From a virus: a stretch of DNA of 32,742 nucleotides. A model generated the notes under the pieces. That model searched no databases. It saw only the letters and a list, made by a program, of their open reading frames with translations, and was not told the origin of the DNA. A program made the translations under genes and the position numbers. Positions 10,673 to 13,453 of this stretch are shown in pieces. Where the stretch lies: positions 1 through 32,742 of the IMG/VR virus record IMGVR_UViG_3300045577_000036. One strand, written 5' to 3'. The first letter of the stretch is position 1. Each line of letters begins with the position of its first letter.

Positions 10673-10895
10673 TGATTAAAAGCATTGAGAAGAGACCTCC
10701 GAACGTAGTTGCGAAGAAGTCACCGAATGAAAAATCGGAGTCGGTGTACGTGTCATAGAACTCCTTGAAGAAGGCCGCACTCATCACGAGAAAAATACAC
10801 GCAAGCGGCTCGAATACGAGAGCGAATAGAGCATAGATGAACGCTCCATAGATGAAGTGATTCGCTTTGTCTTGGGGTAGTTGTGGAAGCTTCAT
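10644..10895 (-). CDS. Small membrane protein (DKxxHF type)
   Basis: An 83-residue protein starting MKLPQLPQDKANHFIYGAF, followed by two or three hydrophobic helices and KEFYDTYTDSDFSFGDFFAT between them. The layout DKxxHF..G, hydrophobic helices, KExxD..., D...D, final helix matches a family of small phage/bacterial membrane proteins (YfiM/DUF2279-like, from memory). ATG 10895 is preferred because it overlaps the upstream stop in an ATGA, while a GTG farther up would invade that gene. The role is unknown; an effect on the envelope or on superinfection is speculation. Confidence 0.65.
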   Translation of the reverse strand: MKLPQLPQDKANHFIYGAFIYALFALVFEPLACIFLVMSAAFFKEFYDTYTDSDFSFGDFFATTFGGLFSMLLINETTGLFIR

Positions 10896-11374
10896 AGTTC
10901 TAAATAATAAAACGGAGTATATGACTCTTTCACCTTCCACTTCGAGACCATTCCATACGGAACTCGATAATAGTTCGCCTTATAATCACCTATCGGCTCA
11001 ATAAATATGTAATGAGTCACCTTCTTTTTATTGTGCGCCCTGCGATTGACCCGAAGTTCACGACTTGAGACATACTTGACATCGATAAAGTAGTCACCTT
11101 TCACGTGGAAATCGAAGTCGTCTCGGCCTTGGTCGAGTATGGTGGTGGTAAATTCAACGCCTTGGCAATTCAAGTAGTCTGCGAAAATCAATTCTGCAAG
11201 TGCGCCATTCACATCTACTTGGTAGTTGAGGTGACCGCGATCGTAGTCGGAATGCTTTGCTCTTAATTGTTCGCACTGGAGCGTCCGCATACGACCGATT
11301 CGCTCGGCCATCGAATGCAGGTGAGCAGGATAGTGGATGATGTCTCGCTTTATTTCGGAAGGAGGTCGCGACAT
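10892..11374 (-). CDS. Putative PD-(D/E)XK-type nuclease
   Basis: A 160-residue protein with a plausible restriction-endonuclease-like core: an N-terminal helix with Glu in GALAELIFADYL, then DQGRDDFDF, then YFIDVKYVS. These supply the E, D and D-x-K positions of the fold. The catalytic assignment is inferred from spacing and hydrophobicity. Specific role unknown: host DNA degradation, junction resolution or a partner of the C5 methyltransferase two genes upstream are all possible. ATG 11374 is preferred over longer versions because the extra upstream sequence overlaps a membrane protein gene in another frame. It joins the downstream membrane gene by ATGA. Confidence 0.6.
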   Translation of the reverse strand: MSRPPSEIKRDIIHYPAHLHSMAERIGRMRTLQCEQLRAKHSDYDRGHLNYQVDVNGALAELIFADYLNCQGVEFTTTILDQGRDDFDFHVKGDYFIDVKYVSSRELRVNRRAHNKKKVTHYIFIEPIGDYKANYYRVPYGMVSKWKVKESYTPFYYLEL

Positions 11375-11688
11375 ATGTATAGTACGTAATGGTAAGACAC
11401 GACAATATTCTCCTTCTCCAGTTTTTTTAGCATTCGTCGTATGCGCAATCCGATGATGAAGTGGTCGATTCCGCAGAGCCAAATAATTAAGATGAACGCG
11501 AAGAACCAAGCGGCAGGTAGCCATAGCGTAATTCCTCCAAGCGAAAGAATAAGAAACATCACCAGCGAGTAACTGAACCACGGCTTGAGCGTTCCAAGAT
11601 TTCTATAAGTCCATCGGTATATTCCGAGGTCGAAATAAGTATCCGTGAATACCTCACGGATGCGGTTATTAATGTCATTTTGTGTCAT
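11350..11688 (-). CDS. Two-helix membrane protein of unknown function
   Basis: A 112-residue protein with two hydrophobic helices at about residues 36-56 and 57-76 (SYSLVMFLILSLGG; WLPAAWFFAFILIIWLCGI), a charged N-terminal domain and a basic cytoplasmic-like stretch after them (LRIRRMLKKLEKEN). No family recognised. It overlaps the upstream gene by 4 bp (ATGA) and the downstream nuclease-like gene by 25 bp, so it is part of the coupled leftward chain. Confidence 0.6.
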   Translation of the reverse strand: MTQNDINNRIREVFTDTYFDLGIYRWTYRNLGTLKPWFSYSLVMFLILSLGGITLWLPAAWFFAFILIIWLCGIDHFIIGLRIRRMLKKLEKENIVVSYHYVLYICRDLLPK

Positions 11689-11846
11689 AAATAAATAGAA
11701 TTTTTTGTTAGTGTATAAAGGTCTCGATTGACTGACTTGAGTTTATAATGGAGAAGTCTTCTTATGTACCTATTTTTTGCGAATTCGCAGAGCGTGATGA
11801 GGTCGACTCTTCTCGCTTTTAATTCATCGATTGTAGGTTGTTTCAT
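11685..11846 (-). CDS. Small basic protein, 53 residues
   Basis: Translation begins MKQPTIDELKARRVDLITLC and is basic and helical (RRLLHYKLKSVNRDLYTLTKN). ATG 11846 follows the leader AATTCAACAAT. It overlaps the 3' end of the methyltransferase by 23 bp and the next gene by ATGA. Function unknown; the composition would suit a nucleic-acid or protein-binding helper. Confidence 0.55.
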   Translation of the reverse strand: MKQPTIDELKARRVDLITLCEFAKNRYIRRLLHYKLKSVNRDLYTLTKNSIYL

Positions 11847-12690
11847 ATTGTTGAATTGCTTTGAAAATTTCGAACGCCACGTTCGGAACAATTGCGTTTC
11901 CGTATGCCATTATGGATTCTTTTCTCCACTTTGAAAAGGTAATTCCGTCCAATTGGGTGGGAATCCCATCATCTCCGCGACAAATCGGGGATTGAGTTGG
12001 GAAGTCGATCCAGGAATCTTTCGCATTGAATTTTTCGAACCGCCCCATTCCGCTATGGAATGCTGCGAATTTTTGCTCCCACTTGTAGGTGTCGGTAGCA
12101 TTCCAAATTGCAGAGCGTTGTTCAGTGTTACTGAATGCATCGATCCCTCTTTTATTTGACTGCTCTTCATATTCATTGTGGCATTTGTCGCGTCCATTGC
12201 AGTCGGAGTAGGCAACAAACCAAATGCGTTCTCGGCGATGAGGCGCATTGGTCGCGCACGCAGGTATAAGAAAGGGCGCGACTTGATACCCAAGATTTTC
12301 CAAGTCAGTACACACCTCATCGAATACCAACCCTCCATTCCAGTTAGTAAGGCCGCGAACGTTTTCGCCCACGACGAAACGTGGGGCAATTTCTCTAATT
12401 GCTCGACACATCTGCGGCCATAGATGGCGTTCGTCATCTTTTCCGCGTCGCATTCCAGCGGATGAGTACGGTTGGCAAGGAAAGCCTCCCGAAATAACGT
12501 CAATTGTTCCATTGTGTTTGGTAAAATCAGTTTTATTAATATCCGTGTATTGAATAGCGTTCGGCCAATAATGTTTCAAAACTCGTTGTCCGAATGGATT
12601 CCATTCGCAGTGAAAAACGTTTTCCCATCCCATCCACTCGGCGGCGAGATCGAAGCCTCCTATTCCCGAAAATAGTGAACCGTGCGTCAT
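11824..12690 (-). CDS. DNA (cytosine-5) methyltransferase
   Basis: A 288-residue C5 methyltransferase using S-adenosylmethionine. Motifs in order: I SLFSGIGGFD (5-14), IV GGFPCQP with catalytic C72, VI ENV (109-111), VIII RRERIWF (152-158), and X YGNAIVP (263-269); the region between VIII and X (about 165-230) should carry target recognition but is short. All catalytic motifs are intact, so it is probably active. The likely role is to protect phage DNA from host restriction. It is coupled to the upstream small gene by ATGA. A 200-codon open frame lies wholly inside it in another frame on the same strand (11910-12512). Confidence 0.95.
   Translation of the reverse strand: MTHGSLFSGIGGFDLAAEWMGWENVFHCEWNPFGQRVLKHYWPNAIQYTDINKTDFTKHNGTIDVISGGFPCQPYSSAGMRRGKDDERHLWPQMCRAIREIAPRFVVGENVRGLTNWNGGLVFDEVCTDLENLGYQVAPFLIPACATNAPHRRERIWFVAYSDCNGRDKCHNEYEEQSNKRGIDAFSNTEQRSAIWNATDTYKWEQKFAAFHSGMGRFEKFNAKDSWIDFPTQSPICRGDDGIPTQLDGITFSKWRKESIMAYGNAIVPNVAFEIFKAIQQYETTYNR
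11910..12512 (-). CDS. Candidate overprinted ORF nested in the C5 methyltransferase
   Basis: A 200-codon ORF in a different frame of the same strand, fully inside the methyltransferase. It starts MEQLTLF after the leader CCAAACACA, which fits the initiation context used here, and contains two LLPTPT/MLPTPT motifs and LNPRFVAEMMGFPPNWTELPF-like sequence near its end. I recall methyltransferase-linked phage 'hypothetical proteins' with the same motifs. However, the motifs coincide with methyltransferase motif VIII (WFVAYSD read one base off gives GLLPTPT) and with the GDDGIPTQLD segment, so part of the conservation is forced. It could be a real overlapping gene or a persistent shadow. Confidence 0.35.
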   Translation of the reverse strand: MEQLTLFREAFLANRTHPLECDAEKMTNAIYGRRCVEQLEKLPHVSSWAKTFAALLTGMEGWYSMRCVLTWKILGIKSRPFLYLRARPMRLIAENAFGLLPTPTAMDATNATMNMKSSQIKEGSMHSVTLNNALQFGMLPTPTSGSKNSQHSIAEWGGSKNSMRKIPGSTSQLNPRFVAEMMGFPPNWTELPFQSGEKNP

Positions 12691-12925: not shown

Positions 12926-13453
12926 TTATGGTTTTAATTGTTTTATGAGTGTTTTATAGTGCGTTAATTTCTCTTTGATTTCGTCGATAGTAAGTCGGAG
13001 TTCAGTGTTGCGGAGCGTGTAGAGTTCATTGAATTGACTTGTGCCGATTCGGCTCGGTAAGTTGTGGGCGTATTCGATGAGATTTCCGTGGCGATGTTGG
13101 TTGCAGTGGGTGCATTGGCCGTGGCAATTTTGTTCGTGGTAGCGAAGATTTGGATAATTTCCAACGGAAAAAAAATGGCCAGCATCATACTTCCCTTGCA
13201 GAGATCGACCGCAAGAGATGCACGGCTTGCCTCGGTCACGCAATCGGATGTACGTATTGAATACTTGCTGAAGTTCTTTGCGCCACTGACTTGCAGGCTT
13301 GAGGTCTTCTCGTTTCTTTTTGATTTCATCTTTGTTCTTCTTGCTCTTTTTTTGATTAGCGTGTTCAATAATGCACAATGGATTGGTGCAAGTAACTTGA
13401 AGTGATGAGTATGTTGGCTCAAATAGTTGTCGGCAGATTTTACACTTTCTCAT
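12926..13453 (-). CDS. ninG: NinG-like recombination protein
   Basis: A 175-residue protein matching lambda NinG (Rap), a structure-specific recombination endonuclease acting on branched DNA. It has an N-terminal zinc knuckle (C4, C7, C22, C27), a Lys-rich helix, then the core CISCG (C78, C81), AGHFFSVG (H93), QCTHCN (C114, C117) and HGNLIEY. These are the conserved Cys/His positions of the family. It acts with the single-strand annealing protein and exonuclease encoded upstream. The start (13453) overlaps the end of the preceding small gene by 14 bp. Confidence 0.88.
   Translation of the reverse strand: MRKCKICRQLFEPTYSSLQVTCTNPLCIIEHANQKKSKKNKDEIKKKREDLKPASQWRKELQQVFNTYIRLRDRGKPCISCGRSLQGKYDAGHFFSVGNYPNLRYHEQNCHGQCTHCNQHRHGNLIEYAHNLPSRIGTSQFNELYTLRNTELRLTIDEIKEKLTHYKTLIKQLKP

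Follow-up and report, generated by a model that had tools for sequence, protein, structure and literature searches.

A C5-cytosine DNA methyltransferase (MTase) gene in the window, a 32,742-nt stretch of virus DNA, carries within it a second open reading frame in the +1 frame that is confirmed to be a real, conserved overlapping protein-coding gene and not an artefact. The product of this nested gene is very probably the beta subunit of an m5C methyltransferase made of two polypeptides, as in M.EcoHK31I, and would comprise the variable region and motif IX. With the outer frame denoted alpha and the nested frame beta, alpha would provide the site for the cofactor, the motif IV cysteine for catalysis and motifs VI, VIII and X. 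Beta would be started separately, at an internal ATG in the +1 frame, and would provide the variable region and motif IX, that is, the small domain contacting the target DNA; the two chains would assemble into one enzyme marking phage (or host) DNA. Translation of the nested gene, assembly of the heterodimer, the need for both chains and the target sequence belong to what we infer.

The locus and its two reading frames

The alpha ORF (11824-12690, minus strand) encodes 288 aa related to C5-cytosine DNA methyltransferases based on profile matches to Pfam PF00145 (E 6e-45) and phrog_363 (E 2e-71), and contains motifs I to VIII and X but not motif IX. Beta is entirely contained in it, with an ATG at 12512 and a stop ending at 11910 on the same minus strand, in frame +1 relative to alpha; its 200 aa belong to phrog_1008 (‘DNA methyltransferase’, E 4e-18). 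Position, phase and length of the nested 200-codon ORF (11910-12512) are exactly those reported in the earlier note on this DNA.

Motif I of alpha (SLFSGIGG, 12655-12678) lies outside the overlap. The nested start codon (12510-12512, opening the reading MEQLTLF) recurs at MTase codon 58-59 in the family of the window and is followed by alpha motif IV with the catalytic Cys (SGGFPCQPYSSAG, 12454-12492), read in the nested frame as REAFLANR, which bears out the previous proposal that the nested N-terminus is a shifted reading of this motif. Downstream are motif VI (VVGENV, 12358-12375) and motif VIII (APHRRERIWFV, 12214-12246), just past which the homology to single-chain MTases stops. The LPTPT repeats and the LNPRFVAEMMGFPPNWT motif noticed before were also located: the variable region shows in the nested frame a first LPTP motif (LLPTPTAMD, 12192-12218) and a second one (MLPTPTSG, 12078-12101), and a motif IX-like end (LNPRFVAEMMGFPPNWTEL, 11940-11996) is recognized both by hhalign and by its codon-position mismatch pattern. 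Motif X (AYGNAIVPNV, 11878-11907) is found past the nested stop, in the outer frame. The coordinates of all these motifs refer to the minus strand. A reading of the nested N-terminal QLTLF as a clamp-binding motif was rejected, as this peptide coincides with the conserved TIDVI of the MTase and is absent in several relatives.

The start context CCAAACACA had been considered similar to that of real genes; it holds no Shine-Dalgarno sequence, and in this respect it does resemble the other starts of the family. In the Bacteroidota-like family of the window, Shine-Dalgarno sequences were detected at none of 92 nested starts and at 4 of 88 MTase starts. SD-like sites, scored by a permissive count and given as raw numbers, precede 43 of 77 nested starts in family B and 67 of 76 in the streptococcal type. 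Judged from sequence, the nested starts are consistent with translation of beta from an internal ATG.

The genes near the MTase are related to replication and packaging (NinG, a DnaB-like helicase, a YqaJ recombinase and terminase). A neighbouring ORF (10892-11581, minus strand) contains FDFHVKGDYFIDVKY, which by eye resembles the core of PD-(D/E)XK nucleases; no Pfam or PHROGs match was obtained for it, and therefore its role as a restriction partner of the MTase is a guess only.

Openness of and constraint on the nested frame

For the comparison of phase 249 loci were used, one of which, stored in reverse, is the own locus of the window. The nested and MTase frames overlap in the same phase in 248 of 248 phased related loci (some redundant), 241 of them without a stop in either aligned stretch; the remaining stops affect the nested stretch in 4 loci and the MTase stretch in 3. 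Stops in the shifted frame of homologs, proposed previously as a check, are thus rare (4 of 249 loci; one broken lineage in the family of the window). Since many of the 248 loci were found with the nested protein as query, the set retrieved with the MTase only is a fairer sample, and in this set the +1 frame is open for 165-315 codons in 27 of 27 unique sequences. Among 95 unique MTases the observed open length was reached in only 450 of 190,000 synonymous codon shuffles, 365 of which came from a single sequence with a broken nested frame (L059), the sole one of these first 95 without a long nested frame; in an extended set of 181 unique MTases, 96% were significant at p<=0.01. The lineage to which L059 belongs (L059, L060, L123 and L125; four contigs from more than one metagenome) has a single nested stop, both frames being otherwise well conserved, for which natural loss, recoding or a very recent mutation are candidate explanations. 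The same +1 overlap was detected in 76 of 80 loci of bacterial genomes, from Bacteroidota, Bacillota, Proteobacteria, Desulforhopalus, Acidobacteria and Anaerolineales. At a Mucilaginibacter locus (L376) the alpha part ends before the ORF containing the variable region and motif IX, apparently with no overlap.

Synonymous constraint was evaluated as the agreement of MTase third bases at fourfold sites between pairs with 45-80% protein identity. In family A (93 sequences), with 0.27 expected, agreement was 0.35-0.38 before codon 40, 0.49 in the bin just before and at the nested start and 0.53-0.92 inside the overlap, and it dropped from 0.87 to 0.37 directly past the nested stop (p 3.8e-12). 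Family B, with 77 sequences and more diverse, displayed the same pattern, agreement decreasing from 0.82 inside the overlap to 0.31 past the nested stop (p 3.4e-10); the members of each family are related, and these p-values describe columns rather than independent evolutionary events. Because MTase third positions are nested second positions, such constraint is the signature expected of purifying selection on the nested protein. The strong synonymous constraint that had been named as a further check is therefore present, and host-frame constraint limited to the overlap together with conserved openness of the nested frame characterizes this locus as an overprinted gene, the first of the two outcomes considered in the earlier note.

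The mismatch at the three MTase codon positions shows which frame dominates in each stretch. A normal pattern was observed over motifs I-III (.17/.12/.48), motifs IV-VIII (.20/.11/.38) and motif X (.18/.15/.53). In the variable region the MTase frame has 27% identity and a mismatch of.57/.43/.44, whereas identity in the nested frame is 45%; mean nested identity amounts to 86% at the motif IX-like end, with a mismatch of.08/.09/.30 (0.86 vs 0.75 in the MTase frame). Read most simply, constraint acts on the MTase frame as far as motif VIII, where this frame is probably also the ancestral one, and on the nested frame across the variable region and motif IX. This switch in frame dominance looks as that of a frame-shifted, split methyltransferase would.

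MTases of streptococcal phages (loci L266-L345 and L351 1336-1761) were fetched as a negative control. These enzymes keep motif IX in the outer frame and yet carry a +1 ORF (approximately codons 48-190) over which synonymous constraint is strong and has sharp limits (p 1.3e-16); this ORF corresponds to phrog_16143 and is annotated in phage MM1 as ORF14. For this reason the set no longer serves as a control and neighbouring genes, frame +2 and two plasmid MTases were used instead. Frame +2 gave no openness signal by codon shuffling, with about nominal rates, and the 3.3% of 214 neighbouring genes at p<=0.01 was also about the nominal rate. In the two plasmid MTases the longest +1 frame spans 39 and 60 codons, with 27-28 stops. 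The NinG gene of the window (12926-13453, minus strand) has an open +1 frame of 161 codons (p=0.01 by codon shuffling), which is within chance among the 214 genes tested.

Motif IX and the identity of the nested product

The similarity of alpha to the M.HhaI and M.HaeIII chains ends at residue 162, that is, at motif VIII, and its profile alignment to the single-chain MTases of streptococcal phages also ends at motif VIII (column 169), with no motif IX alignable to single-chain MTases; alpha is therefore not an ordinary single-chain C5-MTase with all motifs in one frame. Conversely, the only alignment of the nested profile to single-chain MTases places the nested C-terminus, LNPRFVAEMMGFPPNW, on motif IX, RRLTPRECWRLQGFPDW. 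By hhalign the nested motif IX was matched to IRRLTPRECWRLQGFPDW of the streptococcal-phage MTases (E 0.0075, one target) over a short alignment of 23 columns with a probability of 5%. The distance between nested motif IX and motif X is 65 nt (21.7 codons), and 19-23 codons separate these motifs in five single-chain MTases. Altogether, the presence of motif IX on a separate polypeptide is supported with moderate strength, the motif being short. The earlier note had missed both that LNP..V..MMGFPxxW corresponds to motif IX and that this motif is absent from the MTase frame.

The profile of the nested protein matches the C-terminal half of the MTase of mycobacteriophage Babsiella in its own frame (E 6e-18), and thus the nested sequence also exists in a non-overlapping context. 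Searches of Pfam and NCBIfam with nested proteins produced no credible match and no model, a PDB search with the nested profile gave no matching sequence, and nothing informative was obtained from the PDB for the C-terminus of the Babsiella enzyme or for Obama12 gp79. The AlphaFold model of beta alone was poor and uninformative (pLDDT 56, pTM 0.24), a low quality to be expected if beta is an obligate partner. At locus L240 a motif IX sequence usually found in the nested frame, MNPEWVEWLMGYPIGWTEL, forms the end of the MTase frame instead, as if a switch between the two frames had taken place.

Among the alternatives, the possibility that the nested similarity is a mere shadow of MTase motifs, and the ORF a spurious and widespread false annotation, is already refuted. 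The MTase does indeed partly dictate which nested residues lie opposite motif IV (EAFLANR) and motif VI, and there is no Pfam or NCBIfam model for the nested protein; the caution expressed before that the similarity may be forced thus holds for the N-terminal half (motifs IV-VIII). It fails for the C-terminal half, in which the nested frame is the better conserved of the two (0.45 vs 0.27 in the variable region, 0.86 vs 0.75 at motif IX) and for which in-frame homologs without overlap exist. In addition, synonymous shuffling destroys the open frame and the synonymous constraint is confined to the overlap. Programmed frameshifting, in which ribosomes translating alpha would change to the +1 frame past motif VIII and thereby add the variable region and motif IX to a single long chain, would agree with the natural joining of the two frames at motif VIII and with phage Obama12, in which the variable region, IX and X follow in the +1 frame directly after a truncated alpha. 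This mechanism is nevertheless very improbable: the onset of constraint and openness is near MTase codon 58, where the nested frame starts, and not past motif VIII, ATG starts recur, with SD-like sites in the families that use them, and the slipped product would have no motif X, since this motif stays in the outer frame.

A real overlapping gene with another job, either as a regulator, an anti-restriction protein or a DNA-binding partner of the MTase, in which the likeness to motif IX reflects shared ancestry or coincidence, is unlikely, although less so than frameshifting. The motif IX similarity is short, and the streptococcal MTases have a constrained +1 ORF in spite of keeping motif IX in the outer frame; the nested gene therefore cannot exist only for motif IX, and its N-terminal part has a role beyond it. 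Against such a different function, the C-terminal half of beta has its homologs in single-chain MTases, whose variable region and motif IX are in frame, and the nested motif IX is at the right distance from motif X in an enzyme whose alpha chain is without it. The streptococcal nested element DILExxVDEKYFLS (also written DILExxVDxKYxLS) again points to an MTase piece: when three proteins were searched, it was matched in an E. coli plasmid MTase (E 2.4e-5), where it follows motif VIII in frame. A beta subunit of a split methyltransferase remains the preferred identity of the nested product.

The profile of the streptococcal nested protein aligns with that of the window type (E 3e-7), to which shared MTase constraint may contribute. 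The record of phage SpSL1 matches the streptococcal nested ORF (H212), and this phage has an m5C enzyme that is active in vivo and specific for RCGRC (PMC6755750). We lean towards a broader view in which a constrained +1 overlapping gene would be a general and ancient property of the C5 MTases of mobile elements, the nested chain acting as an integral subunit or specificity module of the whole branch; this would take in enzymes with every catalytic motif in the outer frame (MM1, SpSL1) and extend well beyond the rare oddity of M.EcoHK31I.

Significance and relation to known systems

What appeared to be an annotation artefact becomes a large, testable set of one-locus, two-frame enzymes, seen at 248 phage or viral loci (some redundant) and 76 bacterial loci. 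Many phage MTases annotated as single genes, oddly overlapping ‘methyltransferases’ or hypothetical proteins, are probably half enzymes; cloning of a recoded outer ORF would therefore fail, and predicting specificity from the outer ORF would mislead. The locus also represents an unusually clean natural system of overprinting, in which the outer frame, probably the older one, is constrained in one stretch and the nested frame in the next. The two-in-one layout, for which one or two characterised enzymes were the known examples, proves to be widespread among phages and prophages. What a specialist would find surprising is this breadth, together with the streptococcal form in which alpha retains motif IX.

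Annotation has recorded pieces of this arrangement. The profile phrog_1008 matches 60 of 60 nested proteins tested; both phrog_1008 and phrog_16143 are labelled just ‘DNA methyltransferase’, with no hint of overlapping subunits. LILY_63 (‘g62 internal gene’), MM1 ORF14 (‘putative methyltransferase’) and TADHANA_55 occupy the same position and phase inside an MTase gene, and their records have no mechanism or conservation analysis attached. In the literature library searched, no described phage case of such a nested methyltransferase subunit was found. In RefSeq, E. coli prophage MTases of this sort are called partial or internal-stop pseudogenes (L432 786-1955; L433 801-1562); given the two-frame layout, it may be worth re-examining some of them.

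Single-chain actinophage enzymes contain the same parts in one frame and one chain, unlike the window. In Babsiella gp54 the LPTP repeats, PEWMMGWPxGW (motif IX) and GNGVCPQQ (motif X) are homologous to the nested frame and to motif X of alpha, the repeats and PEWMMGWPAGW running directly into motif X, and Rabbitrun gp78 likewise has motifs IX and X. At the Babsiella locus (L259 1832-2335) the LPTP repeats begin in the +1 frame, in which gp55 is annotated, and continue in frame 0, which gives the appearance of a variable region that changes its reading frame halfway. Mycobacteriophage Obama12 (gp80/gp79), whose truncated alpha is followed in the +1 frame by the variable region and motifs IX and X, looks similar to M.AquI, in which both of these motifs and the distal variable region are located on the beta chain (PMC3404938). 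The enzyme of the window would share with M.AquI the distribution of a catalytic half and a variable-region half on separate polypeptides and differs from it in that motif X is in alpha and not on the small chain.

The closest parallel is M.EcoHK31I, an enzyme with the target YGGCCR whose beta gene lies in another frame inside the alpha gene, as the small gene does in the large one here. In its published motif layout, to which the comparison refers, the larger of the two polypeptides contains motifs I-VIII, X and a predicted TRD, and the smaller one motif IX only (PMC3404938). The enzyme of the window would likewise combine a larger chain with motifs I-VIII and X, without IX, and a separate smaller polypeptide with motif IX. 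The two differ in that the predicted TRD of M.EcoHK31I is in the large subunit, whereas the conserved part of the variable region, with the LPTP repeats, is here in the nested frame, and in that M.EcoHK31I belongs to a characterised restriction-modification system, whereas the genes described here reside in phages and prophages, among replication genes.
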